Source of the DNA: Dichotomocladium elegans
Taxonomy: Eukaryota > Mucoromycota > Mucoromycetes > Mucorales > Lichtheimiaceae
NCBI GenBank assembly: GCA_025716815.1
Contig: JAIXMN010000039.1
Coordinates: 62,001 to 126,000 of the forward strand
DNA: 64,000 nucleotides
Direction of reading: 5' to 3'
Position numbers and translations under genes: made by a program
Shown: positions 44,965-64,000 of the stretch, piece by piece
Layout: each line of letters begins with the position of its first letter
Numbering within the stretch: the stretch's first letter is position 1
Notes under the pieces: generated by a model
The model's input: only the letters and a program-made list of their open reading frames with translations
Told to the model about the DNA's origin: nothing
Database searches by the model: none

Positions 44965-45332
44965 CAGGATTTTCAACAAGAAGTTTGCCACAAAATTTAG
45001 TTGTTCATATAGACTGTCTAGGTTTTTCATTTTTTTTTTGCTTCAAATTCGAATACAAATTTTAGTATTTCGTTGCTACCCTTTTGTCAAATTTAAAGGT
45101 AATAGCAGCAAGAACATTTCAATCAAGGCTATAGGTGAGTCCTCCTTCTCCTCTTTTTAAACCATAATAGTTTTGGGAGGCCAACCATTTATGTTTTATT
45201 CTAATTTCAAAGGAAGAAGAGAAACGAAATACTAAAATTTCTATTTGAATTTGAAGCAAAAAAAAAACGAAAAACCTAGACAGTCTATACAAACAACTAA
45301 ATTTTGTGGCAAACTTCTTCTTGAAAATCCTG
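44965..45332. mobile_element. Tc1-type MITE, copy C
   Basis: A 368 bp copy with CAGGATTTTCAACAAG and GAAAATCCTG ends and flanking TA (44963-44964, 45333-45334). The interior is in the opposite orientation to copy B. Confidence 0.9.
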
Positions 45333-45474
45333 TAGTGATCTATCATGTTTTAAACCAATTATTAGAGCTTGTATACCAAGAGAACTCCACTGTTGAGTTT
45401 CATTCCGCAAAGGATGGCTGCCTGACTTGTAAGGACATTGATATCTCCAGTGTAATATTGACTCTATTTTTTTA

Positions 45475-46268: not shown

Positions 46269-48911
46269 TTACACAAAGGTGATATGCGTCCCAGAAATAA
46301 GTGTGTGCGTTTCACGCCAGTCCTGCCGCCAGCGTGTTAAAAAAAACCTTTTGTGCTGAGGGCAAGAATGAAGCCAATCTTGGATGTCATGCTTCATATT
46401 CGGCCACCAGTAGCGTTTGGAGACCAGGTCGTAAACTGTAGCATTACCTGCATGCCCAAAACCGTCATGGTATGCCTTTACTGTATCGGCACGTCGGGCG
46501 AAGAGCACGTACCGCCGTTCTTGAATAGAATTGCCGACTTTGACAAGACGATACACTTCGTTATTACGACTAACAAATTGATCACGATGCTGTATTAAAA
46601 GATCTCAATAAGTATTGGGCCATTTGGACTCTAATGTGGTATAAAATCGTGGCCAGTCCGACTCTTGGATCGCCTTCATTGCATAAAGGTAGTCAGGTTC
46701 GAGTGAAGGTTCCTCTGAGACACAAGCAAAACCATCGCGACGGGACAAGAGATCAGGTATATGGTTTTCGCGGCCGGGTTTATAAAGGATCTCGGGATTA
46801 TAAAGCTCAAGTTCAGCCATCCATCGTGTTAACCGTGGAGTCGGCTTAATCTGGGTACGGAAATACCGCAGCGGGTGGTGGTCTGTATAGACCACATATG
46901 ATTGTCCTTCTATGAAACAACGCCAGGTGCGCAAAGCATAGAGAATTCCCAACAATTCTCGTTCTTGAGCTGGGTAGTTACGTTCAGCAGGAGAGAGCTT
47001 TTTGGACTCGAAAGCCACAGGGTGCATCAAACCATCTTCGCCTTTTTGCAGGAGGACAGCGCCAACGCCAAAATCAGAAGCATCTGTCTCAATCGTAAAA
47101 AGTTTAGAGCCATCTGGTGGGATTAGAATCGGCGCCTGGGACATTCGGAGTTTGATTTCATCAAATGCGGCCTGGCAACGGGGAGTCCATTCTATAGCTC
47201 TCTTTCTCGCACCAGTTCCTCTCGTCAAGTCGGTTAGTGGGGCAGCAATCGTAGAAAAGTCCTTAATGAAATGGCGGTAATGTGAGCCGAGTCCAACGAA
47301 TTGGCGTACCTCATGCACATTTGTTGGCTGTGGCCATTCTTGAATAGCTTTAACTTTTGACTCGGAAGGCCGTATACTGGCAGCTGAAACACGAAACCCT
47401 ATGAATTCGAGTTCTGTCTTGAAAAATTCGCACTTCATGGGGTTTGCAACAAGCTTAGCATCGCGGAGATGATTAAGCACCTGACGTACATGGCAATGGT
47501 GCTCGTCTTTACTCTGACTAAAAACCAAAATGTCATCAAGATACACTAGGCAGAACTTGTCGAGGCAATCGCGGAGTACTGAGTTCATGAGCCGTTGAAA
47601 CATAGGCGGGGCGTTTGTCAGGCCGAACGGTAGTACTAGCCACTCCCAACTGCCATAGCGTGTATTAAACGAGGTTTTTGGAATATCCTCTTCGCGAATG
47701 CGAACTTGATGGTACCCACTCTTAAGGTCAATACTGGAGAAGTATCGTGCACCACTGAGACGCTCGAGGCACTCATCAATCCGCGGCAATGGGTGTGAAT
47801 TGCGTTGGGTTACTTGATTAATAGCGCGGTAATCAATGCAGAGGCGCATAGTCCCGTCTTTCTTTTTTATGAATAGGACAGGGGCACCCCAAGGTGACGT
47901 GCTGGGTCGGATTAGACCAAGGTCAAGCAGTTCCTTAAGTTGCTTGTTTAACTCGTCGAGTTCCAGAGGGCTCATCTTATATGGATGACGGCTGATTGGC
48001 GAAGCATCGCCAGTGTCAATCACATGGGACACTCCGCGATCAGGCGGAAGCCCAGATAACCTGTCTCGAAAAACGTCTGGATACTCGTCACGAAGATCTT
48101 GCGGAACGCCTGTGCTGGTTGAACCATCGGAATGTACATGACAAAGGAACATATGGACGATTTTCTTTTTCTTTGCAAGGCGCTGTACTTGTTTGTGTGA
48201 TATCAGGTACGCCAGACTTGGGTCTAATCGATCGTATGTGGGGTGTAGCGTGAAGGTCTCGTTATTGGTATGGATATGCCATATATCGCTCTCCCAGTCG
48301 GGAATCGGATTGATTTGCTTGATCCAGTCGCGCCCAAGAATCAGGTCGAACTTAGTGTCAAGAATGAAGGCTAATGTTTGATGGACAAATCCAGCGGCAT
48401 TTACCGTCAACGTAGCGCATTTGTTGATGTTCAATTTATGACCACCGGCTGTTTCGACTTGTCGTTTTGAAATGGACTTTAAAGAGCTGCCGCGAGCTAT
48501 TGTCGAAGATACGTATGTTGCAGTTGCACCGCTATCGATCAATGCACGAATAGTTCGACCATTACATTCCATAATATACAGAGGCAAAGGGGTGTTTTTT
48601 ATTGTGTTCAGACATTCAATGTGTCTTACGTCAGCAGTTAGATCGATCGTTGGTGAATTGTTGAGATTTTGATCTGATTCGTTTCGTTCATCTGAAAGGT
48701 CGATTAGAGCGGCTTCTTTTGTTTCAACGTTCTTTAGAGGTGTGGATATGGCATGAAGGGATGGGTTCTGGCGCGAAGGGACTCCCTTCAGTCCTGACGC
48801 GCCTGTTCTTTTAAATTCACTTGATGACTCCATTGAGTAACTTTTTGCCGCTGTCCCGAAGCGTTCGGAGGAGCTAGACAATGACGAGCCAAGTGGTTGG
48901 CACCGCCACAA
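46269..48911 (-). pseudogene. Ty3/gypsy pol, truncated in integrase
   Basis: Domains in order from 48911: aspartic protease (IDSGATATYVSS), RT (SPWGAPVLFIKKKDGTMRLCIDYRAIN; YLDDILVF catalytic Asp pair), RNase H (FTIETDASDFGVGAVLLQ; YTDHHPLRYF) and the start of integrase with its HHCC zinc finger (YHDGFGHAGNATVYDLVSKRYWWPNM...C). TGA at 46605-46607 interrupts the frame between RNase H and integrase; a frame change follows near 46340 at a poly-T run. The sequence ends at 46269, so the integrase DDE core and 3' LTR are missing. The start overlaps gag by 124 bp in another frame, implying frameshift expression. Confidence 0.88.
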
Positions 48912-49750
48912 TTATAACAAAGCCTTGGTGCGCGTGGGCCATTGGGTACTTCCTGGGAATGTTGACGGTCACTTCTTCGGCGCCACCCACCATTCATGAC
49001 TCGATTGTTTGCGAAGTATGGTCCCCGGATAGCATCCAGTTCCATAGGTGTAGGACCTGTTTGCGGGACAAAATATGGTTGTTCCACCTCCTTCTGTGAG
49101 GTCTCAAAGGAGCGTACTCCTTGCGCTAGTTCTTGTGCAGCTTCAAACGCCTCGGCTGCGTTATACGCGTCTGCCAAAGTGCGTGGATCCTTCAGTAACA
49201 CTTGGAGTCGAGCGTTATATTCCAAGCCACTTATAAACTGGTGTTTTGCGTCCTCATCGTACATGTCAGGCAAGTCTAACATGATGTCTCGAAAAGCAGT
49301 TACATATTCACGAATCGACTGGTTTTGCCTCAAGCTTTGCAAACGGAAACGAGCGATCTGGGAGCCGTTCTTTGGCTTGAATTCATTCTTGAAGGCTATC
49401 TTGAACTGTGCCCATGTCTCCGGCTTGGCTGGACCGCCGTCCCTCGGGTCAATGCTTGTCTCAAGATGTCGCCACCATGTGGCTGCTCCCTCGCGTAGTA
49501 GAGTCGATACGAATTCGACTTTCTTGTTCTCTTTGACGTCTGGTTTGCAGCTCAAGTACTTCTCCACAGTGTGAAGCCAAGCTTCGACCTTGGATGTAGA
49601 ACGTTCGCTGGTGTAGACATCGGGTCTTGTGGGGTTCAGGTCGGTATGTGGAACTGCAGCTAATCGTAGCTGTCTGATCTCTTCTTGCTGCTGCTGCATT
49701 TGTTGCATCATTGCTTGCATGGCCGCAAGCATTTCGTTGGTTCCTACCAT
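48788..49750 (-). CDS. Ty3/gypsy gag with CCHC knuckle
   Basis: 320 residues with an N-terminal Gln-rich helix (MQQMQQQQEEIRQLRL), a retrotransposon capsid region (VEAWLHTVEKYLSCKP, ATWWRHLE, SIREYVTAFRDIMLDLPDMYDEDAKHQFISGL) and a C-terminal CCHC zinc knuckle (CYNCGGANHLARHC) for RNA binding. It starts 49 bp downstream of the proposed 5' LTR. The frame is intact, although pol is broken. Confidence 0.9.
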   Translation of the reverse strand: MVGTNEMLAAMQAMMQQMQQQQEEIRQLRLAAVPHTDLNPTRPDVYTSERSTSKVEAWLHTVEKYLSCKPDVKENKKVEFVSTLLREGAATWWRHLETSIDPRDGGPAKPETWAQFKIAFKNEFKPKNGSQIARFRLQSLRQNQSIREYVTAFRDIMLDLPDMYDEDAKHQFISGLEYNARLQVLLKDPRTLADAYNAAEAFEAAQELAQGVRSFETSQKEVEQPYFVPQTGPTPMELDAIRGPYFANNRVMNGGWRRRSDRQHSQEVPNGPRAPRLCYNCGGANHLARHCLAPPNASGQRQKVTQWSHQVNLKEQARQD

Positions 49751-49798
49751 TGTTCAAATATTTGCGGATCGTTCAAAGGAGGGGCATCAGCTACCAAA

Positions 49799-50074: not shown

Positions 50075-50948
50075 GTAGTGTCGGCTATTTTTGGCGGATG
50101 AACCTTGGCCAGTGTCGTCTTTTTATCAAACTTGGATACCACTGAGAAGAGACGACGTCCACTGAGAGAATAACCACGAAGAGATAACCACAGAGAGATA
50201 GAACCACACAGATAGTCGTCTGGACAATATATGATGATGTTTTATTACGATAAATGTCCCATTATTTATACTGTATTGACTTGTAAGAAATGAGTACAAT
50301 GCTGTCAAGATTGCTACTGATGACTCATGTTTAGCAACCATTGTCATTCGGACTTTGTCTAAAAAGTGCTACGCTCCGCGGTAATGGTCATGTAGCCGGT
50401 GATTAAAATAATCGACTGGACTGTACTACGACACCAGTGTAGGGACGAGTTGAGTAGTGATGATTTTTATTATAGTTGGATCGAGGGTATTTATACTAGA
50501 TTCTAGAATGCATTGATGGGGATGTTGAGGTTAATCGTAATCGTTTGGAAATTAATATATGTAGCTGTAGCAATAATTGCCGTGGATTAATCAATGCACG
50601 GAAGTAATAAACGCAGTGAATCAATCAATGCACCATAAGTAATACATGCAGTCCAAATCGGGCGCTCTTGAATAATTCCCCTTTTTTTGGTTATGACAAT
50701 GAACCTTTCTGATTGGATGGCGTATTTGTATGCGACAGTAGTCGTGTCATGGTCTGCTACTGGTTACATGGTACAGTCAAATGTGTAACCTTTCTCGAAG
50801 GAGTACAATGCGTAGCCGTTTTGCTGAGCATTCACTATCTGCTGAGCATTCACTATTTGCTGAGCATTATTGCCAAGGCATGTAATGCGCAGCCATTTAA
50901 TAGTTTCCCTTGTCAAGATGCTTAGCTACCTAGAATTAACAATACATA
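50075..50948. other. AT-rich intergenic sequence, possible solo-LTR debris
   Basis: No supported gene. Short repeats of ACCACNGAGAGA-like sequence occur at 50136-50205, and a TTATTTATACTG promoter-like stretch near 50265 recalls LTR sequence. No boundary pair was found. Confidence 0.35.
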
Positions 50949-51973
50949 CAGGATTTTCAAGAAGAATTTTGCCTTAAGGATTAGTTGTTCGTCACCGTGT
51001 TTTTTAGTTGGCCATTGTTGAAAGGGAATTGGGCATAGAAGCTTTGGTTGTTGGCAACCTGCAGCGCCGAATTTGGCCGCCAGCGGCAGTTGAATTCGTA
51101 AAAAATGGACGAGGTTTTTCGTTTTTTTTTTTCTGTTCAATTCGTCTTCCCCAGCTTAGTTGTTCGCCATCATTTCGAAGGTCGATGCCACAGAGAGGTT
51201 GTTCGAAATTGAAATATTATTTTATCGCCAAGACAATTCGTTTTTATGGATTTGGTTGACAAAGATAATCGCGCAATTAGTGTAAGTGATTGGTTTCAGT
51301 AATCCCATTTGGTTACTGCAAAATCATTGTTGGAACGCACTTTTATTTTGCTCATATAGCATCACTACATTTTTCGCAATCTATCTTTGCACACATAACT
51401 CGCGCATTTGCATGATTAAGAGCAAAAACGGTGAACGCTGGGCAACGAGCAATTACTGAAATGCACCAGACTCGGCATCCGCTATTCTTTCCTTGTCATC
51501 CGTCGCCATTTCTGTGCAGCTAGACCGGAAAGATGTCTGTTGACCAGTCCATTGCAGTGTGAGCATAAAGGTGGGTGGACGACACCAATGGGAAGGCGAA
51601 CGAAGGGGCTGCTGGAAAGCTTTTCAAGCTTAAAATCAAACGGAGAGAGCGATAGAGTAGGAAAATAAAAAGGGCGCGCTGCAGTTGTCGAAATATCGAC
51701 GTGTCTTTCCTCCCCTTATACTTTTGAACATGTGCAAAAAAAGAGCCCATCTTACTCTTAATTAAACCCGAATTATTGCGAGGAGGAAAAGGAACAACGT
51801 CAACTTCTTCGAGCTCTCTCACATAAGACCCGTGCTGCCACTCTATTTGCAGGTTCTTTCGACACGTTTGTGCGTCTTTGTCTTTTACAATTAGAAGTCC
51901 TGATGTGGACAGGATATTTCCGTTGTCAGCAACAAACTCAAGCTGCGGCTAATGTCTGGCTCCAAATGTAAGG
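50949..51973 (+). repeat. Left TIR of Tc1-like element 1
   Basis: About 1025 bp matching the right TIR in inverted orientation, diverging just after CCAAATGTAAGG. A 100-codon open frame occurs identically in both TIRs but is best explained by the duplication itself. Confidence 0.92.
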
Positions 51974-52859
51974 ACAGTATTCCTGGTCAATGCGCTGATT
52001 GCGAGGAGGCCGAGCAAACACGATCAACTATTACTCTATAAAAATATTAGTTGCTATATCGTGATATTATGATCGTGCAACCGCCAATTTATGAGACTTT
52101 TAGACCATGGCAGACCTCACGAATATACGGGAAGCCATGCGAGACTCACGATGACATTAACGATGCAGATCCCGGAAAAGAAATGAATGCTACTGCTTTA
52201 AGCACACTCTTTTGTGTTCCGCTTAAGCTATTACTGCTTCTTTTACAAAATCCGCATAATCAGTGCTAAACTCAAAGCTCAGTCGAAGAATAGCTCCAGG
52301 AATAAGTAAAATAACTGATATCCTTGGTTGGCTCAGGCAGGAATCTACGGAAAGTAATATTTTTGATACAGCAAAGCATAATCCGCCTCAACGAAGGAAG
52401 TATAGTTATTACGTTACGTTTATTCAAAAGTCGGCTAATAAACTGGCGGCACGGATTTTGTTAGAGCAGTCTGTATGGATGGCAGAAGAAGCGGTAGTAA
52501 AAAGACAGCTCATCCTGCTATAGAACATTTGCGCTATGTGTCTAAAGGGAAAGAAAGAGCTACACATGAAGTAAGTTGAGAAGCCAGAGAAAAGGTTTCA
52601 GACAGTGAAGATGGTGGCTCATTTCTGCTGTCGAAACGGATCGCAGGAAAGCTCATGCTATAATAATAAGTATGTGACGAGCGATTATTGGAGCATAACA
52701 TCTTAGAGAATGATTAATCAGAACTGCTAGGCTGTTTCACCGTTGGTGGCAACGTTGTGATACAAGAGCTAGAACGGATACCCACTTAAGGCGCTTTCAT
52801 AATTCCTTGATCACCTCTTCTTCGCAAAGATTTATCCGTGTACCCTTGTTCCCTATAAG
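51974..52859. other. Upstream region of transposase gene in element 1
   Basis: No supported gene; small open frames at 52051 and 52263 match nothing I recognise. It presumably contains the promoter of the transposase gene. Confidence 0.4.
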
Positions 52860-54605
52860 ATGGCTTCCTCAAAATCCAATAAACTCTCGGCGCGCACTGT
52901 TGCCAAGGTCACGAAGCATCATTATCGACCAGTAGTCCCTTCACAGATGCGCTCGCAATTCGCGCACAGTTCCTCTCTTCTCCTGACACGACGGCTGACC
53001 AGATCTATGGCATCATTAGATCTTCGTGAAGACGATGGTATGCGCATACAGGATGCGGATTCTGATGAGTGGCCAGTGATCAGTATCCAAAATATACAAA
53101 ATACGGTTTTGCTGAAAAACTTATGTAGATGATTCTGCGGCCAAGCCAATGAGTGACGATGACGATTGCGAAGGTGATGAAGTGAACAGCAGACATGAAG
53201 AAGGCGACGAGGAAATCGATCTAGAAGATGAAATGGTGGATGGCACGAATGACTCGGCATTCACCAAATATCGCTTCCAGATCGACGAATCAGAGAGCGA
53301 TTACAAGAGTGACAGTAATAGTGACAGCGATGAGACCGAGATCAACTACAACCATGGCAGAGATGGCAGTTTGCTCGATATCCCCCAGTCTGTTCGCCAA
53401 AGGTCAGTCTTACAGTCCCTGTTGCGTGATGATAATTCTTCAGCGTCGCTTGTTGTTGAACAAGAAGTGATCGAGCAACCCAGCTTAAGATCGAGGCGCG
53501 TACACAGTACCAGCAACCATAAGAATGGACCGAATTTGACTGCTCATCAGATCAATAAGATCATTGAGCTTGTTAAACTATGTGGTGCAACGCATGCCGT
53601 TGCAGCAGCAACAGTTGGAACCTCGCGTCAGAATGTCGGTAATGTTATTCGACGATTTAATGAAAATGGTGGTGTTGTTCTACCTGGTCAGAAAGGCAGG
53701 ACAGCACCACGTAAAATTAGCCCGAGTGGTGACGCTTTCCTCCGCGAATTCATCACCAAGCATAATACTGCTACGTTAATGCAGATTCAGGAACACTACC
53801 TTAAAGAGATCGGTACCCTTATACCTATCTCAACTCTTCACCGGCACCTCTGTAACCAATGCAGACTAACTTTGAAGCGTGCCGGCAGATATCCGGAGCG
53901 CCGTGACGATAATGAAACCAGGGAGATGAGGCGTGATTGGGTGCTTAATTGGGTCGACAAAGGCATTCTTGACTACACGACAAACTGTGTTTTCATCGAT
54001 GAAGCATCATTTAATGCTAGTATGCGTAGAAATTATGCACGATCGGAAGTGGGGAAAGCAGCTCGTGTAGTCGTTCCAGTTCTTCGATCGCCCTCTATGA
54101 CATTACTGGCAGCTATCAGCGCAAAGGGCCTCGTTGAGGCAAGCATGAAGACTGCACCGAAGCTCGCTAGCACAACACCGTCTGGTTCAAAAGGCAAATC
54201 GGCAACGAAGAAGTCAAGAAGAGGAACAAATAGCCATGATTTTCTAGCTTTTTTGCATTTGGTCATGGACCGATTGGATGCTCAAAACCATCACGGAGCC
54301 TACCTTGTTTATGATAATGCCCCGATCCACACTCCTGCATTTATAACAGAAGCAGTTCAGGAACGCGGCTACCATGTGGTACTTTGCCTCGTTATTCGCC
54401 TTTCTTGAACCCGATTGAAGAGTTCTTTTCCAAGCTGAAGACACTGTGCCGCAGAGATCCTATTGACAAAGAGACTATGCTGATGGATATCACTTCCCGT
54501 GTTACCGAGTCCATGGCGCAGATCACTACAGCAAACTACGAAGCTTGGGTGCAACATTCAATTAGCTTTTTTGAAAAGTGCCGTCAGAAAGAGGCAATGT
54601 TATAA
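52860..54605 (+). pseudogene. Tc1/mariner-like DD34E transposase (element 1), one frameshift
   Basis: Exons 52860-53037 and 53129-54605 joined by a phase-1 GT-AG intron. A basic N-terminus is followed by an acidic region (MSDDDDCEGDEVN), a helix-turn-helix (HQINKIIELVKLCGATHAVAAATVG...QNVGNVIRRF) and a second winged-helix part. The DDE_3 core has VFIDEASFNASMRRNYA (first Asp), VYDNAPIH (second) and NPIEEFFSKLKTL (Glu). The frame slips near 54385 at the conserved YLPRYSPFLNP block; restoring one base would give about 551 residues. The C-terminus EAML parallels EDML in element 2. This copy is probably dead unless the slip is a sequencing error. Confidence 0.85.
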
Positions 54606-54768
54606 CGCCCAGAGTTTAATAGTTTCGTTATTATAAAAGGTTTTTGTATCGCTCCTACCGAAGTAAATATAGCAATCCGTGTCACTGGGACACGTCGGAA
54701 GCTGTTTAACTCGCCGTTCCTGGTCGTCGATGATCATTCTTTCTCTTTCGGTAAACTCTTACTTCACC

Positions 54769-56343
54769 ATGAACAACAACAACCAGCCCACCACTCCCAC
54801 TCCCGCCCGTCGACTGTCAACACGCGAATCCGATGCAGTGGATGCTTTGTCGATGCTCTTCACCAGAAGTGCGAGCTTCAAAGACACTGGTTCGTAATCT
54901 CAAGCATACATCCTAATATACGCCGAATACTTAACCTTGTTATATTTGACGTCGACGGCGAATAGACTCGGACTATACCGATCCTGGAGATGGTAAGAAC
55001 ACGTTTTCTCGCACATAATTGAACTAAAAGCAAAAGAGAATAGACGATGAGACTATGGAAGATTATCCAGGCACCTCGTTTTCAGTAACCAGCGCTGGCG
55101 CAATGGCAGAACAAGAGCATTGTATGTAGAAAGGATTGAATGAATTGCAGTTTACTTACTGGAATGTTAAAAAGCGGATCAAGTAATGACAGAAGTCGGA
55201 AGCCAGCAAGTTTCGTCCAATGTACCTCCACCAATTGCTCATGTCGCTGGTACTGGTGCTTCTAATGCTCGTACACAATCTCGCACGACCAAACCTGTCG
55301 CCAATTCTAGAGGCAAAGTGTACAAACGCGGTAAAAAGATAGGATATAAGGTGTGGAGCGAAGACCTCGTAAAGACCGCGATCGAAAACCATGTGATATA
55401 TGGTATGACGATGGCCGCCGCTGCCGATACCATCCATATGCCAATCTCAACATTTCAGGGGTACTATCGGCGCTTCAAAGCGTCGCAAGGAATTACTGTG
55501 ATGCCAAGACGACGAGGACCTGCGCGGGCGGATGAGTTTGACCATGTTCAGACCCGCTTTCTGCTGGATTTTGTCGATGATCATCCAGAATGCACTGTGG
55601 AGGACATCTTGGCGGCACAGGCCGACCAGCAGATTGAGGGGCGTTTCTCGAGCACAAGAGTGCACAAATGGCTTGCGAAGAATGCGCGCATTACCTTTCG
55701 CCGTGGTCATAGTTTTGCGGTAACTCCAAATGTTGACGAAAACAAGCACCTGGAGGGAATTTTCTTCCAGTTGTCGTCAAGGGAAAACTTCAAACCTGAT
55801 GACAACGTTATCTTTATTGGTGAAACCTACTTCGATGCTAACGTGCGCCGCCAATATCCCGCATTGTCCAAGCAGTCGCCATCCCGGACAAACGTCCAAT
55901 ATAAGCCTGTTCCTCTTGTTTGTGTTTTGGTCGCCTTTTCCTGCGCTGGAATAATCACCCACTCAATGAAGCACTACTCCGGGTTCACAAGCGCTGAAGA
56001 ACTTTCTGCTTTCGTCGATGACGTACTTGGCGAGTTAACCACGAGAGAGCAGAAGAGCTGGCATGTCGGCTTCGATTTCCTGCCGGAGCACGTTGCAGGA
56101 CCGGTTTTCGCAAAGATCAGGGAAGAAGGGTTTACCCCTTTTTCCTTTCCAAGTGCAGACGTGCCTTGGAATGCAGCCGAGTACTTGTTCCAAGATCTTC
56201 CCCATCTTTGCGACCGTAAGCGACTGGACGTGGGAAAAAGAGAGACTATGCCGAGTCGGATGGCCACAGCTTTGGCAAAAGTCACCGCAGAGAAGTGCGA
56301 AGGATATATTTTCCGTGCATTCCCAACTTTGCACGATGCATAA
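54769..56343 (+). CDS. Non-catalytic transposase paralogue (element 1)
   Basis: Predicted exons 54769-54889, 54966-54992, 55044-55121 and 55175-56343, all joined in phase 1, giving about 464 residues. A Ser/Thr-rich N-terminus and acidic micro-exon (DSDYTDPGD) precede an HTH (EDLVKTAIENHVIYGMTMAAAADTIHMPISTFQGYYRRF) and a DDE-like fold that aligns with the neighbouring transposase. FIGETYFDANVRRQY sits where FIDEASFN should be, so the first catalytic Asp is Gly. HVGFDFLPEH retains the second Asp, and PWNAAEYLF keeps Glu but loses NPIEEF. It is probably a DNA-binding partner or regulator that cannot catalyse transposition. Frame and splice sites are intact, suggesting selection. Confidence 0.7.
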
Positions 56344-57097
56344 TAAAACTACCTTCATATGTTTTGATTGCCACGATATTCGCTTTATATCCTTCGCCAC
56401 CGTGTTCTAGAATTATTTCAGAAAGGTTCCATATATATGATTTCTTTAGTGTTACAGTATGGAGAATGCTTACATCATGCACTAAATGTAAGGAATGCAA
56501 TGGTCTGCTTATGAATGTTAGCTTGCGCGATCGTTCATTTACTTGATAGAGTTGACAAAAGTTTACTTACCGTTTTTCAAGTTCTCATAGACAAGCTATA
56601 CAGAATGCTGTCCTCCGAGAAGCAGCTGACGAATTGCAGTTCAAAAGTGATCTTGTTTTCAACTAATTGTTCTAGCCTACCAGTAGTAATCGATTCTTGC
56701 CGTTATCGCAATTGAAGCACAGAAGAGAGCAGGAATGTTAAACTCCATATCAGCGTAATCAAAAGTAAAATAAAATAAAAAGGCTCAACAAACCCGCGAT
56801 CTCTCCTTTATTTGTGTCGTGAAGTAGAAGAGCAGTCGTAAATAATTTTTGCAGGCGCCTGGCTCTATGAAGCTCAACGATCATAGCTTTGTTAACGAAA
56901 TCTTTAGCTCTATGACATGCTGCTAGCCAATCAAACACCAGGTATATACCATCACAGATGCGTGGCAAGAGCGTAGGTTTCTTACAATGACTTCTCGTTA
57001 GTCCTTGCCTTTCACGAACACTTTCTTCCGCAGTTCTGCTTTTATAGTCTTACCCATATAGGCATAGCGCTATGTAAAGGACAATATCAAATGCTGG
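56344..57097. other. 3' region of element 1
   Basis: No supported gene between the paralogue stop and the right TIR. Confidence 0.4.
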
Positions 57098-58120
57098 CCT
57101 TACATTTGGAGCCAGACATTAGCCGCAGCTTGAGTTTGTTGCTGACAACGGAAATATCCTGTCCACATCAGGACTTCTAATTGTAAAAGACAAAGACGCA
57201 CAAACGTGTCGAAAGAACCTGCAAATAGAGTGGCAGCACGGGTCTTATGTGAGAGAGCTCGAAGAAGTTGACGTTGTTCCTTTTCCTCCTCGCAATAATT
57301 CGGGTTTAATTAAGAGTAAGATGGGCTCTTTTTTTGCACATGTTCAAAAGTATAAGGGGAGGAAAGACACGTCGATATTTCGACAACTGCAGCGCGCCCT
57401 TTTTATTTTCCTACTCTATCGCTCTCTCCGTTTGATTTTAAGCTTGAAAAGCTTTCCAGCAGCCCCTTCGTTCGCCTTCCCATTGGTGTCGTCCACCCAC
57501 CTTTATGCTCACACTGCAATGGACTGGTCAACAGACATCTTTCCGGTCTAGCTGCACAGAAATGGCGACGGATGACAAGGAAAGAATAGCGGATGCCGAG
57601 TCTGGTGCATTTCAGTAATTGCTCGTTGCCCAGCGTTCACCGTTTTTGCTCTTAATCATGCAAATGCGCGAGTTATGTGTGCAAAGATAGATTGCGAAAA
57701 ATGTAGTGATGCTATATGAGCAAAATAAAAGTGCGTTCCAACAATGATTTTGCAGTAACCAAATGGGATTACTGAAACCAATCACTTACACTAATTGCGC
57801 GATTATCTTTGTCAACCAAATCCATAAAAACGAATTGTCTTGGCGATAAAATAATATTTCAATTTCGAACAACCTCTCTGTGGCATCGACCTTCGAAATG
57901 ATGGCGAACAACTAAGCTGGGGAAGACGAATTGAACAGAAAAAAAAACGAAAAACCTCGTCCATTTTTTACGAATTCAACTGCCGCTGGCGGCCAAATTC
58001 GGCGCTGCAGGTTGCCAACAACCAAAGCTTCTATGCCCAATTCCCTTTCAACAATGGCCAACTAAAAAACACGGTGACGAACAACTAATCCTTAAGGCAA
58101 AATTCTTCTTGAAAATCCTG
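57098..58120 (-). repeat. Right TIR of Tc1-like element 1
   Basis: Inverted copy of 50949-51973, ending GAAAATCCTG at 58120 followed by the TA target duplication. Confidence 0.92.
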
Positions 58121-59664
58121 TATAAATATGCATCTAGCAGTAGTAATAAAGAACCTCGAAGCTTCTGATATTTCTGAATAGTCTCCGTGACATTCCCATT
58201 CTGTGTGAATTTGCCGTTACCTGCTACAAAAAGGATCTTCGTGACCAGGGCAACGACAGTCGGACTCGGCGGGATTTCCCTTTTTAGTAACCACACCATT
58301 GTTGCCGTTCGAACACATAGTCGCCTCTCGTTAACCCATGTCGCCGCCAACACGTAGTCTCCTCTCCATTGAACACGTAGTCATCCCTCAACATGCCATG
58401 TAACCATTGCCTTATATTTGGCATCACCACAACAGCTAGAAAAACATATAAATACTCCCCTCCATTACAAACAATAAAAGGGCATCTTATCATATCTTCT
58501 ACTTGTCTGTTCCTGGCTATGGTCTGATCCGCCAATTATGTCGTAACAGAGATTATCTGACCAATCAGAAGCGTTTGCCAAGAATATCCTTTTATGCTTA
58601 CACCTCCATCACAGCACCAATACTACACCTCTCGCCAAGAAAACCAATCCCAACGATTATTACCCTTTTCCCTCTGCATTCCATCTATGTATTTTTAGAT
58701 AACAAAAACAGTATAAATAACAAGAAGCCCATATACAATAAAGGACACCTTTCGAAACCCTACTTCTGTTTCTGCCCCCAAGCTTAATCACTATTCCTGG
58801 CCAAAGTTTATCCGCCAAAATAGATGACAATTATGTCGTTGCCTAGGTCACTGAGATCCTTTTGTATACTGGGGACAACGACGGGTTCACACAGAACACT
58901 GAATGTCACTAAGACAATTCGGAAGATTGTGATTGATCAGATAGATGCCCTTTATTCTATATTACTGGCTTGATATTTATACTTTGTTATACATTGGATA
59001 TCCATAGAGGTTATGTAAAAGATATGTCACGCCATGTAGAGCTTGTCAGGCCATAGCGACATAATGTATGCATATGCATACATTGCGGGCATGTGCCTGA
59101 GGGCGATGGGATCAGGTCATTTTAGCATGCATATGCATGATGCAAAATCTTTACATTCATGCCACGTGACTCGCACGATCAGTCCACGACAATTACACGT
59201 GTCGTTATCATATTGGCTGATCAGATCAGTGGCCAGTGATAATACTTTTGATATTGCTGTGTAAAGTGATGATCCTTTATTCCTGACTACTCATGCTATA
59301 TATATATATACTGCTATCAATTATTCTATGAATGATGTGGAAGACACTAGTAAAAGAGCTTCTAGCAAATGCCATTGTCGAAGGAAGGAAAAGGAGAACT
59401 AGAAGGAGCCAGCAAAAGCTGTTATACGCAGTCACATGACTACGACACATGTAACAGTACAGGCACTGTTGTGCGAGTACTTACAAAGAGCGTCTGATAT
59501 ACAGCGTGGAGGAAGCGCGAACGCGACGAGAAGAACGATGATTATAATAATACAACGTGGGGATGCCCGACGTCACAGGGCATCCTTGTTTATATAGTAA
59601 CAGTAGCGGGGTAATTACAGTGGTATACATATAGGATCGTCGTACAGAGAAAGTGAGTGTGGTA
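58121..59664. other. Noncoding spacer between the two Tc1-like elements
   Basis: No supported gene. It includes a perfect 22 bp palindrome and a second related one (separate entry) and several TATAAATA-like stretches (e.g. 58975, 59295) that could be LTR debris. Confidence 0.4.
59063..59143. repeat. Paired palindromes with ATGCATATGCAT core
   Basis: A perfect 22 bp palindrome (59063-59084) and a 14 bp perfect palindrome CATGCATATGCATG about 45 bp downstream share the core. They could be a dimeric protein binding site; no function is known. Confidence 0.5.
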
Positions 59665-61710
59665 CAGGATTTTCGGTTGGCTACCGGCCAAAGGTAGGAA
59701 AGAAATAATAGGGTGGAGTATTTTTTCGAGAAGAGCAAGAAAAGAATAATTGAAGCAATAATATTTCAAGAAGCGGAAGGGAAGAATTCCGGAAAGAACT
59801 ACCTCTATGTCTATAGTATGAAAAAGGATTATGGTTGGAGAAAGGAATTGCCGGTTGAAGTATGCGTTTCGCCTTGGGAAAGCACCTTGTGTCTATAGTC
59901 CGATTTGTATTCCCTGTTTTCATTTTTGTGGTGGAAAGTTGACGAAAGGAATAGTCCAAGTGAAGATAATTTTCGCGGCACCAATGATTCAGACCAATGG
60001 GTGGCATTTTTCGTAGCACAGACGTCGTAGTCTATAGGAAAATATATTAGCGTCAACAACGGTATTTTCGCGGGTAGGATTAAATTCGCATGCTGCTACC
60101 TTTATTCGTAGGGTGCACGATATTCATCAGAAGAGAGCCTTTATGCACGCAAACGCTTGACAGTTTTACTATAAAAGGACATATGAGGAAGACACTTCTT
60201 GAAAGAGACAAACAGCCGCGTACCTTTTGTACGCTTTGAAAATAAAGAGCACAGGGCGCTTTTTTGCGAAAATTTTTTTTGGCATCTCTTCCACTCCTAT
60301 TTTTTATTTTGTTTTTTTTTCGCAATGCCTGAACACGAATCTTCCGCCTTGGACGGTCTCCGCTCGACATTTAAAGATTGACATCTGAAAGCCCCCAAAC
60401 AAACTCAGAAGTGTTCAGCTTATATCTTCTGATGCGTAGTGTGGTGAAGAATGTCGCGTAAACAGCAGCTCTCTACGATTTTCTCACTTTTCTCGCAAAT
60501 CCGCGGTTGTTAATCGTCGCAGAAGTACAGCACTGTTTTATCACCCTGCTCAGAAAGATCACTAAGCAGATGTCGAGATCTGTTGTTCTGCCCTTCGGCA
60601 GCACACGCACAGGTAAAAGATTAGAACTCTCGCTTACAATACAGACGAATGGCGGTAAGAAGTTACGACGAGATCGCGCGAAAAGAATAAAATCAAGATA
60701 GATTGAAAAAATGGACTGCTTCCTTGCATGACGAACGGGTGGTTTGCTCTGAGCAGGTCATGGCAAATATAAAGCGCTTGTTATTCTAGGGTGTTGAGGA
60801 GCAGTAAGTGCACGGATCAACAGAGGTCACATCAATATAGATGCGGTTTTTTGAATTGTGAGGAAATCGGGTTTTGGATTTTACTCCAGAGGATCATTCT
60901 GTGATGGTCAGTAATTATTGGTATCCATCCAGCACTTACCTCGCATGTGCATCTTTCTCGGCCCCAACAAGCTAAGAGTATGACTAGGGCAGTAAGTCGA
61001 AATAGTGCTGAGCGTCGCTTTACCTTCCTGGATATGTTTTGCCGGCTATGAGCGCAAACCAGCTGCCTTTGTCCACATAGCGAGTGTGCTTATGCGGTCT
61101 TGAGGTGTCGCAGATCACGGCTAGGCATCATAGACACCTCCATAGAGAACAATAGAAAGCGAAACAGTATTCGTTTTTTGAGGATCATCTGTAACGTACT
61201 CCCCGCTAATGGAGACAACAAAAAATAAATGCGTCCCTGCTCTCCATGGAAGTCTTCGTCGTTCTCTTATCCACCAATCTTAAACCACACACTAACATTT
61301 AACCATAATAACATTAATGCCAGTCATCCCACCCCAAACACTCGTTTACATCCACACTGCTTCGAACGGAAAAAATCGGTTGCTACTGTTGCCTGATCAG
61401 CTGTGTGAAGCTACATTTAAGGGTCAAGATCGCGTAAAATATCGTCTGTCAAAGAGTAGACTACACTATCCAGGAGTGGTATCAGTTCAGTCCGTTTGTG
61501 CGCGCAGGACTATTAGTAAGTATGGTTTCGGGTCATGGCATCAGGCTGCCAACCAGTGAGCCCCAGGCGTCTTGTTAGAGCAAGCATAGTTAAATGCATT
61601 TCAAGTAGTTAGTCCTGCTGGATAACTCGAAAGGGAAGAAAAATAAGGTTTGAATGCACAAAGCTGCGTTTAAGATTCTAAGCTCTTTCTATCTTATTCT
61701 TATTTTTACT

Positions 61711-63243
61711 ATGACTGATACCAACGCCACAAGTGCTCGAGTTCCGGCCCGTCGGTCAGCCAGGATTTCGAAGCGAAAACATAGGGCTAGCACGGTAAAC
61801 CAAGCGACTACTCTGGTTCGAGTTCCTAACTTGGTTGATGCAATAAGAGATCTTCAGTTGGGTCAGTAGATAAAGCGGCTTATAGCTTTAGATCGGGGCA
61901 CCTCTATGCTTATGCCATCTACATTAACACTACAATTAGGTAATGAGGAACCAGAAGAATCGCTAGGAGGCGTCATGGTCGAATATTGCAGCGATCTGGA
62001 CGAGCAGGAAGATGAGGATATGGCGGATTGTGAGGAAGTCGATGCAATGGACACTGACGACGTACAGGACATTCCGCCGCGATCACTCATGGCTGCAATT
62101 CGTCTACGCATGCAAGAGCTTGGTAGTCCTTCACCTACGCCAAGCCGTGCCATTTCGCGACGTGACAGTGTCGCTAATTCTTCCTCCAATGACACAGAAA
62201 AGAAAGTTCGGCGGCGCTGCACAGTTTCAGAGAAGTTGCTTGTTGCCAATGCAGTTCACGACAAACGCCTTTCTCACGCTGCTGTAGCCAAGCTTTTTGG
62301 CATTGGACGATCCACTGTCGGCGACATTTTGAAACAATACGCTCGCGGAGACCTCAGCGATGACGCCGAATCGAAAAGAGTCGCAGCAAGATCGGGAGGT
62401 GAACGGAAGATCACTGATGAAGGGAGTACCTACATCATTGAATTCCTTGCCAAGTACAACTCTGCTACCCTCCGGCAGATCCAGACCGCATATCTTGACA
62501 GATTCGATGTCCAACTCGGTCTATCGACCATCTATGACCATTTGAGAAGACAATGCAAATTGTCTCTCAAGCGAGCTGTATTTTATCCCGAGAAACGAAA
62601 CGCTGATGAGACTAAAGACAAGCGACAAGCGTATGTGAAGGAATGGATCTCGAGCGGCATCCTGGAATATGAGAGAAATTGCGTATTCATCGACGAGGCA
62701 TCGTATAACCTGTCGATGGGACGCAATTATGCATGGTCTTTAGTTGGCCAGCCAGCTAGGGTTATGGTCAAGAAGATGAGGTACCAGTCTCGCACGCTCC
62801 TAGCTGCCATATCGCACGAAGGACTTGTAGGTGCATCAATCAAGGAAGGTAAAGGTGGTACCAAAAGTCCCGACTTCCTTGCATTCCTTGAAGAGGTGAT
62901 GGATGATCTTGACGGCAAAGAACGACGAGGGTGGTATCTTGTATGCGACAACGCGTCGATCCATAAGACAAAGATCATTCAGGAGGCAGTGGAGAAAAGG
63001 GGTTATCATATGGTGTACTTGCCGCCATACTCACCATTCCTCAATCCAATTGAGGAATTTTTCTCCAAGGTAAAAGCAGTGTTTCGACGAGTGGCAGTAG
63101 GCCTTGACCCGGAGAATGCACCGCTGCTACACGAGCGTCTGGCGCAAGCAATTGCTGAAGTCCGCCCAGAAGACTATGCTGGATGGGCTCGCCACGCAAC
63201 CACGTTCTTTGAACCGTGCCTTGGACGTGAGGATATGCTGTAG
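61711..63243 (+). CDS. Tc1/mariner-like DD34E transposase (element 2), intact
   Basis: Exons 61711-61861 and 61940-63243 join in phase 1 to 484 residues. The N-terminus is basic (RVPARRSARISKRKHRA), then acidic (DLDEQEDEDMADCEEVD), then an HTH (SEKLLVANAVHDKRLSHAAVAKLFGIGRSTVGDILKQY). A second helical DNA-binding part (LAKYNSATLRQIQTAYLD) precedes the DDE_3 core: CVFIDEASYN (first Asp), LVCDNASIH (second) and NPIEEFFSK (Glu), with 34 residues between the last two. It is the same family as 52860-54605 with no stop or frameshift, so likely functional. An in-frame ATG 57 bp upstream would add 19 hydrophobic residues; I prefer MTDTNATSARV because it starts the basic segment. Confidence 0.88.
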
Positions 63244-63503
63244 TTTTTCCCTTGCCTCTTATATATATATATATAAAGGTTATCTTCATACTTTGTTTAC
63301 CCATTCTGCTTTGGTTTTGTAAATCGGAGTACTGTAGGGGAATAGTTACGGTTCCATACACCATCCGTTAGAACTATCAGTGTAACGTAAGCCTCAGACG
63401 ACTGTATCACCGCTTTAAAAAGACAGCGATCGATGTTAGTAAAAGTTTGCTTCTCTTTAGACAGCATCATCCCTAGTACCATTTTCGAAAGCTACGAACT
63501 GCC

Positions 63504-64000
63504 ATGTCTTCTTCCAACTCCACCCCGAATAACACCAGCAAGCATGCAGAGCCCAGTCTTGTTCGGCAGCTGTCCAGGTCTATGTCGGACATGACAATCG
63601 ATGAACCTGACTTCAGCGGTATATTAGTGAAGCCCTGACATATTTGGCGTGTTTTGACTGTATATTTACAAGTAGACTTTGATATTGCTGAAAGCGACGT
63701 AGCGGACGTGTCGTCTAACCAGCAAGGTAACGAAAGGACCTTTACGAATCGGCAATGCTGGCAACATATTGATATTATGAAGTAGAAGCAGAAGCAGAAG
63801 CGACAGCTGGACCGAGGACAACTAGTCGGAGAAAGGACAAGGGCAAGGCCCCCAGGGCTAAAGTTTATGAAAGGATGTCGTACGAGCGGCGGATGCATGC
63901 CCTTTCCGCCATGGTGGATACCTGCGCTTCGCCTTCCACCGTTGCCGCGCGTATCGGTGTTAGTGTAAGCACTCTGAGGTCCATCCGCAAGCGGTATCAC
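63504..64000 (+). CDS. Start of second transposase paralogue gene (element 2), partial
   Basis: Predicted exons 63504-63618, about 63673-63726, and 63783 to the window end, with phase-1 introns as in 54769-56343. The N-terminus is Ser-rich (SSSNSTPNNTSKHAEPSLVRQLSRSMSD), followed by a small acidic exon (DFDIAESDVADVSS) and a basic stretch (TTSRRKDKGKAPRAKVYERM). An HTH follows (MHALSAMVDTCASPSTVAARIGVSVSTLRSIRKRY). Exon plan, charge pattern and position after the transposase match the non-catalytic paralogue of element 1. The DDE-like part is outside the window, so its catalytic state is unknown. Confidence 0.6.

Follow-up and report, generated by a model that had tools for sequence, protein, structure and literature searches.

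In this study, a 64,000-nt window of the Dichotomocladium elegans genome (C56:62001-126000; 39.4 Mb in 122 contigs) was found to contain two Tc1/mariner-like transposons, Element 1 and, running on past the window's end, Element 2, each carrying a DD34E transposase gene followed on the same strand by a paralogue of the transposase that has lost the first catalytic Asp. We put at about even the chance that this paralogue partners the transposase in an architectural role, as a DNA-binding protein that is catalytically dead. The reading is drawn from sequence: homology to transposases, loss of the catalytic residue, linkage of the two genes, their co-retention, purifying selection extending over the dead core, and a predicted fold. 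From these we infer that the paralogue would interact physically with the transposase, bind the transposon ends and be needed for transposition.

Transposase genes and their linkage to the paralogue

An earlier sequence-only reading of the window had described an intact DD34E transposase in Element 2, and this was borne out. The 445-aa protein matched the DDE_3 profile (PF13358) with E = 4.8e-26 and carried the triad motifs FIDE, CDNA and NPIEEF, with a spacing of 34 residues between the second Asp and the Glu. Its matches to the CENP-B_N and HTH_23 profiles exceeded the cut-off; helix-turn-helix (HTH) matches in the Element 1 transposase and in the paralogues were below it. The transposase described in Element 1 had the same catalytic motifs, and its first part matched DDE_3 with E = 3.6e-9, but the frame of the window copy is broken by a 1-nt frameshift located 3' of the second Asp. 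The C101 copy of this gene has no frameshift there, and the copies on C101 and C38 lie within 496-aa open frames. An N-terminal HTH, a DDE_3 domain of the DD34E type, and terminal inverted repeats (TIRs) with a TA target-site duplication, judged from the element ends, were all present, as in the IS630-Tc1-mariner group. Tc1 elements typically have a single open reading frame (ORF), whereas 37 of the 43 transposase loci found here had two genes.

These loci, at least 43 after clustering of the matches, belong to two element clades, A and B, and 37 had a paralogue downstream on the same strand. In 34 cases (18 of 22 in clade A and 16 of 21 in clade B) the paralogue was within 2 kb, against a chance expectation of 0.08 loci; 3 more were within 15 kb, and 6 loci were without. 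Transposase matches covering 1140 bp or more within a single row, tallied by eye, were paired in 22 of 22 cases (8 of clade A, 14 of clade B). The unpaired loci were truncated pieces of 348-1014 bp, save one 1175-bp locus of two broken pieces on C63. The sequence-only reading had named, as a result that would tell against it, a majority of copies lacking the second gene; instead, the paralogue was found at most loci and at all the long ones. Among 50 matches to other Tc1-type transposases, none had a same-strand downstream paralogue within 15 kb; one of these rows (C46:2061522) had paralogue remnants 9 kb off on the upstream side. Some of the 50 rows are pieces of one locus, the second pieces of three loci having been omitted.

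The pairing was based on 27 of 95 and 71 of 113 rows from the paralogue searches and on 25 of 109 and 22 of 99 rows from the transposase searches. Rows left out of the former (68 and 42, with 19-31% identity) belonged to another gene type or clade; those left out of the latter were other Tc1 families, duplicates of the other clade's list, and matches to the transposase N-terminus only, from the 3.65-kb elements and fusion derivatives described below. One broken element on C59 accounts for 2 of the 43 transposase loci and has one paralogue, hence 36 paralogue loci for 37 paired transposases. All locus counts are lower bounds because the searches score best candidates only. In long copies free of nested insertions, the matched stretches of the two genes were separated by 0.5-1.2 kb. 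At C63:58533-65627, a 4.07-kb derivative (59827-63891) is inserted between the two genes, and on C75 both genes lie inside one pair of Element 2 TIR ends 21 kb apart.

Catalytic site and predicted fold of the paralogue

Paralogues aligned with transposases at 63-102 bits, compared with at most 5.2 for 612 controls; by these scores the paralogue is a true transposase homologue. The Element 1 paralogue has FIGE at the position of FIDE, in agreement with the sequence-only reading, and that of Element 2 has FVGE. The first catalytic Asp was replaced in 38 of 38 copies (Gly in 24, Ala in 10, Ile in 4), a count taken among 71 paralogue loci and including many near-identical copies; an intact triad, looked for in related copies as possible evidence against a dead paralogue, was absent from all of them. 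The NPIEEF motif, reported as lost from the Element 1 paralogue, is altered there, but the column of the catalytic Glu still holds E (NAAEYLF), and the second Asp is kept. No complete DDE or DDD triad was seen in the paralogue.

That the paralogue is still catalytic, with another acidic residue standing in for the first Asp, seems very improbable. In its favour, a Glu directly follows the lost Asp in 37 of the 38 copies (FVGE, FIGE, FVAE, FFAE and FVIE; the exception is FVGV), and many copies retain the second Asp and the catalytic Glu. In open copies of some other families, however, the second Asp is replaced by Ser or Asn and the Glu by Asp or Arg, and the group therefore has no metal site in common.

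Structure prediction, proposed earlier as a check, gave a model of the paralogue similar to Mos1 and Metnase, and a Mos1-like fold is accordingly predicted. A PDB sequence search with the clade A paralogue profile returned weak matches alone, mostly to HTH regulators, and the same profile had no match at E <= 0.001 among 7997 candidates scored from 5.8 billion proteins. The clade B profile had 4 protein matches, three from D. elegans and one (P0122) that corresponds to a sequence of this genome itself. No relative was found in IMG/VR with the clade A paralogue profile or the Element 2 transposase.

Gene structure of the paralogue

A deposited predicted protein of D. elegans (P0121, 467 aa), 54% identical to the Element 1 paralogue, matched 2 of 3 genomic copies tried letter for letter. 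Its genomic exons are 121, 69, 102 and 1109 nt long and are separated by three GT-AG introns in phase 1. Read in this manner, the Element 1 paralogue is predicted to have exons of 121, 27, 78 and 1157 nt encoding 461 aa, not the 464 residues given earlier, and the Element 2 paralogue exons of 115, 51 and 1103 nt encoding 423 aa, with all introns in phase 1 in both. The exon-1 ATG and GGTAT donor of the latter are conserved in 4 of 4 aligned Element 2-type sequences; the C64 copy of this type has a stop inside exon 1. The second gene of Element 2 had been described as an HTH gene with phase-1 micro-exons. The small phase-1 exons are predicted here as well and are supported by the exon structure of P0121, but the gene also contains a whole degenerate transposase core of the RNase H-like type, and a mere HTH gene is thereby ruled out.

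Selection on the two genes

The ratio of nonsynonymous to synonymous substitution rates (dN/dS), calculated by the Nei-Gojobori method for pairs with finite dS, was 0.10-0.41 for the paralogue and 0.05-0.09 for the transposase; where dS was saturated, the ratio could not be used. Five young paralogue pairs, when pooled, had 76 synonymous and 80 nonsynonymous changes (rate ratio 0.31, Fisher p = 9e-13, with site totals computed by hand). Removal of pair L053-L064, which has a dN/dS of 0.41 and one member (L064) frameshifted close to its end, left 49 synonymous and 41 nonsynonymous changes (p = 5e-11). In four clade A pairs analyzed by domain, dN/dS was 0.13-0.31 for the RNase H-like core, 0.10-0.24 for the first HTH and 0.24-0.47 for the N-terminal part of the main exon. 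The value for the core indicates that the dead domain is being kept; by these ratios the paralogue, dead catalytic domain included, is under purifying selection, and the neutral evolution that would have spoken against the sequence-only reading was not found.

The ratios also bear on whether the paralogue is a passenger, that is, a decaying duplicate retained merely by sitting between the same TIRs. Differences in the triad positions between families, and stops or frameshifts in some copies, speak for such a gene. Yet dN/dS is well under 1 in old and young pairs, the pooled young pairs among them, frames are open in many families, and there is no transposase match of at least 1140 bp without the paralogue. 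For the period covered by dN/dS this explanation is rejected, and we give it hardly any credence.

A further possibility is a separate DNA-binding or targeting factor, acting through its HTHs and acidic N-terminus in element transcription, target choice, nuclear import or end protection. Consistent with this, dN/dS was lowest in the first HTH for three of the four pairs (0.10-0.11) and equal lowest there for the fourth (0.24), the small-exon peptides are conserved between families, and accessory proteins of the ciliate TBE elements, their role unknown, are described as under purifying selection (PMC12242761). A simple DNA-binding factor would not need a constrained catalytic-type domain, such as is found here, and we regard this explanation as unlikely.

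Evolutionary history

In a tree of 36 proteins, in which the program flags long branches, all 13 paralogues formed one clade (support 99/98) outside the transposases of element clades A and B and of Circinella. When one paralogue clade at a time was included, neither nested within its own transposases. Recent copying of the paralogue from its own transposase in each element was rejected, since clade A paralogues and clade A transposases as one group gave a p-AU of 0.0003; the transposases of clades A and B as one clade were neither shown nor rejected (p-AU 0.445). Distances between families correlated for the two partners within clade A (r 0.87, 5 of 120 permutations) and within clade B (r 0.92, 1 of 120). 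These sequence comparisons are most simply read as a single old duplication, after which transposase and paralogue descended together.

Putative role of the paralogue

Under the architectural-partner reading, gene 1 would encode the DD34E transposase that cuts and joins, and gene 2 would descend from an old transposase duplicate which, after losing its first catalytic Asp, turned into a subunit that binds DNA without catalysis. Its HTH region and RNase H-like fold would most likely have been kept for binding the transposon ends and for joining the active transposase in a mixed complex, where it would position or stabilise the catalytic subunits. Eukaryotic cut-and-paste transposases are described as multimers (PMC6182136). 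A paralogue that is dead but has HTHs and has retained its fold is what one subunit of such a multimer could look like. The sequence-only reading took the paralogue for a real component of the elements, and this claim is supported by co-retention, dN/dS and the absent triad. A wider proposal, that a whole Tc1/mariner lineage has an obligately mixed transpososome with an ancient dead paralogue as essential architectural subunit, is put forward more tentatively, its chances being somewhat below even.

Several observations weigh against a partner role. The case is built on sequence and a predicted fold; the alignment behind the structure model contained transposases, which may bias the model to a transposase fold, and the model made from seven paralogues alone was poor (pLDDT, the predicted local distance difference test score, 45), with the order of helices and strands nearly unchanged. 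The paralogue has diverged 2.3-2.7 times faster than its transposase. The 99/98 paralogue clade unites two long branches, and the point at which clade A or clade B attaches when included singly has weak support. The pooled correlation over ten families, dominated by between-clade distances, was unsupported, 3285 of 14400 within-clade permutations being as high as observed, and co-divergence therefore rests on the within-clade tests. Finally, 35 of 71 paralogue loci had no transposase found beside them, some being deletion derivatives or at contig ends; the locus survey and the derivatives together show that the paralogue often occurs without a transposase, yet no long transposase match occurs without a paralogue.

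Element boundaries and terminal repeats

Positions of the features are listed in Table 1. As claimed earlier, Element 1 is flanked by TA and has TIRs of about 1 kb. Their complementarity is 100% in two blocks of 858 and 185 nt, with a small indel in a T run between them, and the two arms are nearly identical within each element. Both elements start with TACAGG and finish with CCTGTA. Their TIRs have the terminal TACAGGATTTTC in common and elsewhere merely scattered 11-mers.

Table 1. Positions of the elements, their genes and related copies (window coordinates unless a contig is given)
Feature	Position	Strand	Remarks
Element 1, whole	50947..58122	+	7176 bp counting both flanking TAs; ends TACAGGATTTTC ... 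GAAAATCCTGTA
Element 1 left TIR	50947..51981	+	about 1.04 kb (about 1035 bp); inverted repeats 100% complementary
Element 1 DD34E transposase, main exon	53116..54602	+	open 53116-54405, resumes shifted one frame at about 54396-54602; broken copy
Element 1 paralogue, exon 1 (predicted)	54769..54889	+	121 nt; phase 1 end; length and phase as P0121 exon 1 on L048 and L049
Element 1 paralogue, micro-exon 2 (predicted)	54966..54992	+	27 nt
Element 1 paralogue, small exon 3 (predicted)	55044..55121	+	78 nt
Element 1 paralogue, main exon	55184..56340	+	1157 nt; HTH region and RNase H-like core, FIGE for FIDE; open frame 55171-56340
Element 1 right TIR	57090..58122	-	inverted repeat of left TIR
Element 2, part within window	59663..64000	+	whole element reaches 68933; 9271 bp with both TAs
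Element 2 left TIR	59663..61614	+	about 1.95 kb; right copy beyond window; inverted repeats and boundary
Element 2 DD34E transposase, intact	61906..63240	+	445 aa from first ATG of open frame
Element 2 paralogue, exon 1 (predicted)	63504..63618	+	115 nt; phase 1 end
Element 2 paralogue, micro-exon 2 (predicted)	63676..63726	+	51 nt; phase 1 end
Element 2 paralogue, main exon start	63786..64000	+	continues to 64888; HTH region, RNase H-like core with FVGE, FDAM, NPTE
Fusion derivatives	C57:41.2-42.8k, C55:26.6-28.2k, C92:4.5-6.1k, C59:28.1-29.6k, C94:4.1-5.6k, C72:24.5-25.6k		L056, L057, L060, L067, L069, L058
Clade B paralogue remnants	C56:154920-155682, C57:1231396-1232158, C59:74671-75433, C2:343096-343858, C80, C93, C73, others

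Further copies of the Element 1 end are present in the genome. The 10-mer CAGGATTTTC occurred 308 and 305 times on the two genome strands versus 22 and 21 times for the reversed control, and many of the listed sites form convergent pairs about 355 bp apart, resembling miniature inverted-repeat transposable elements (MITEs). In the window itself, a short inverted-repeat element at about 45000-45334 has an end 85% identical over 46 nt to that of Element 1 and is probably a MITE mobilised by these elements. Within the Element 1 TIR, GATTAGTTGTTCGTCA (position 33, window about 50979) recurs 175 bp inward as GCTTAGTTGTTCGCCA (position 208, about 51154) with 14 of 16 positions matching, a layout that resembles the inverted repeat/direct repeat ends known from Sleeping Beauty and other Tc1 elements.

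The inner 305 bp of the Element 2 TIR are found on both sides in all three full copies. A need for this long inner TIR in cis was rejected, since Element 2 derivatives of 4.07 and 5.0 kb lack it; otherwise, a single 131-base match was found beyond the three full copies. The suggestion that the paralogue is a TIR-bridging subunit is weakened in the version that needs the long inner TIR, these derivatives sharing the outer TIR and not the inner part. The 3.65-kb relatives of Element 1 have retained an inner TIR, which is diverged.

Derivatives and lone copies

Twelve relatives of Element 1 with both ends were found (e.g., C59:1790-5441), eleven being 3652-3664 bp long and the twelfth 4023 bp; their TIRs measure about 1 kb and have ends that are 81-83% alike. 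Each has one match, about 57% identical and mostly in a 151-aa frame, to the first 105 transposase residues and no other match to either gene; these twelve 3.65- and 4.02-kb elements are non-autonomous. The 4.07- and 5.0-kb Element 2 derivatives had no match to either gene. In another family, an internal deletion has joined the acidic region and first HTH of the transposase in frame to the paralogue. This fusion is open over 512 aa in C55, C57 and C92, and related copies, some broken, are in C59, C94 and C72; the close similarity of the copies indicates that they multiplied recently.

Such fusions bear on a self-encoded inhibitor, in which the dead paralogue would compete for the ends or poison multimers and so limit copy number, after the pattern of Tn5 Inh and the P-element KP repressor. 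Their occurrence at six places is as can be seen with repressor-type derivatives; the paralogue has kept the fold and HTHs and not catalysis, and a dominant-negative effect would be expected of a dead subunit in a transposase multimer. On the other hand, all 22 long transposase matches have kept the paralogue, multiplication has also occurred in derivatives with no match to either gene, and a pure inhibitor would be expected to be weakly selected and easily lost, yet selection is seen between families 41-80% alike. We assign inhibition a minor though real chance.

Some copies stand apart from complete elements. A 9.4-kb segment (C13:89430-98817) has Element 2 ends on both sides and no match to either gene, and is a candidate for cargo or a nested insertion. 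Multi-copy, decaying remnants of the clade B paralogue, about 38% identical and with stops in a common pattern, occur without transposase. The most divergent clade B paralogue, L066 (C24:307075-308193), lies in an open frame of 454 aa, and no neighbouring transposase was found; this lone paralogue may be a domesticated gene.

Comparison with known systems

With their DDE_3 transposase, DD34E triad, TA target and TIRs, the elements resemble Tc1-like DD34E elements of Mucorales within IS630-Tc1-mariner, and the named proteins nearest to the transposase are from Circinella minor, Rhizopus and Mucor. Tc1 elements are described with a single ORF, and some, such as Minos, with TIRs of several hundred bp (PMC7325037). 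The D. elegans elements differ from these in carrying two genes, the second a dead paralogue, and in having TIRs of 1.0 and 1.95 kb.

The ciliate elements TBE, Tec, Sardine, Thon and Anchois likewise combine a Tc1/mariner-type transposase with accessory genes, and long TIRs are reported for Tec and Thon (about 700 bp each) and for Sardine (425 bp) (PMC7325037, PMC3464196). As far as the accessible descriptions go, these elements encode as extra proteins a tyrosine recombinase, a zinc-finger/kinase protein, a small protein or hypothetical ORFs, none of them described as a dead transposase copy. In the D. elegans elements the accessory gene derives from a transposase, and beyond the two genes no frame above about 120 aa was listed between the TIRs.

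An experimentally tested precedent is offered by Paramecium, where PgmLs, which have no complete triad, bind Pgm directly and their depletion inhibits excision; their catalytic domain evolves faster, and an architectural role has been suggested (PMC6143343). Both systems have genes for an active transposase and for related proteins without a complete triad. Pgm and the PgmLs are piggyBac-type host genes without a transposon, whereas the dead partner of D. elegans is encoded inside a mobile Tc1/mariner element. The transposase of the latter is of the DDE_3/Tc1 type, and the paralogue matches that profile and a Mos1-type fold, not the piggyBac type.

The textbook case of a one-gene transposon is the Tc1/mariner element. 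Two-gene elements are found in other superfamilies, namely PIF/Harbinger (transposase and Myb-like protein), CACTA (TnpA/TnpD) and MuDR, in which the second protein is needed or helpful for mobility; to our knowledge, it is not a transposase paralogue in any of them. We know of no other mobile element with its own live/dead transposase pair, and that of D. elegans would be the first. If the partner reading is right, such a lineage, having doubled its transposase gene, inactivated one of the two and retained it under selection, would illustrate the way in which a homomeric recombinase turns heteromeric inside a mobile element, a step otherwise known to us from domesticated genes such as Pgm/PgmL. 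With its transposase frame intact and its paralogue open, Element 2 makes the question directly testable.

The sequence-only reading knew of no described Tc1/mariner group with this two-gene plan. A literature search, with Repbase and most subscription papers outside its scope, likewise found no Tc1/mariner element with a dead transposase paralogue, and a 2025 report calls accessory proteins "surprising" for Tc1/mariner (PMC12242761).

Other features of the window

An Rfam scan of the window gave no match. Remains of a retrotransposon of the long terminal repeat type lie at 46269-49757 on the minus strand, with a gag-like frame at 48788-49750 that contains a zinc knuckle and, at 46605-48911, a frame for reverse transcriptase and RNase H, these identities being assigned by eye from motifs.

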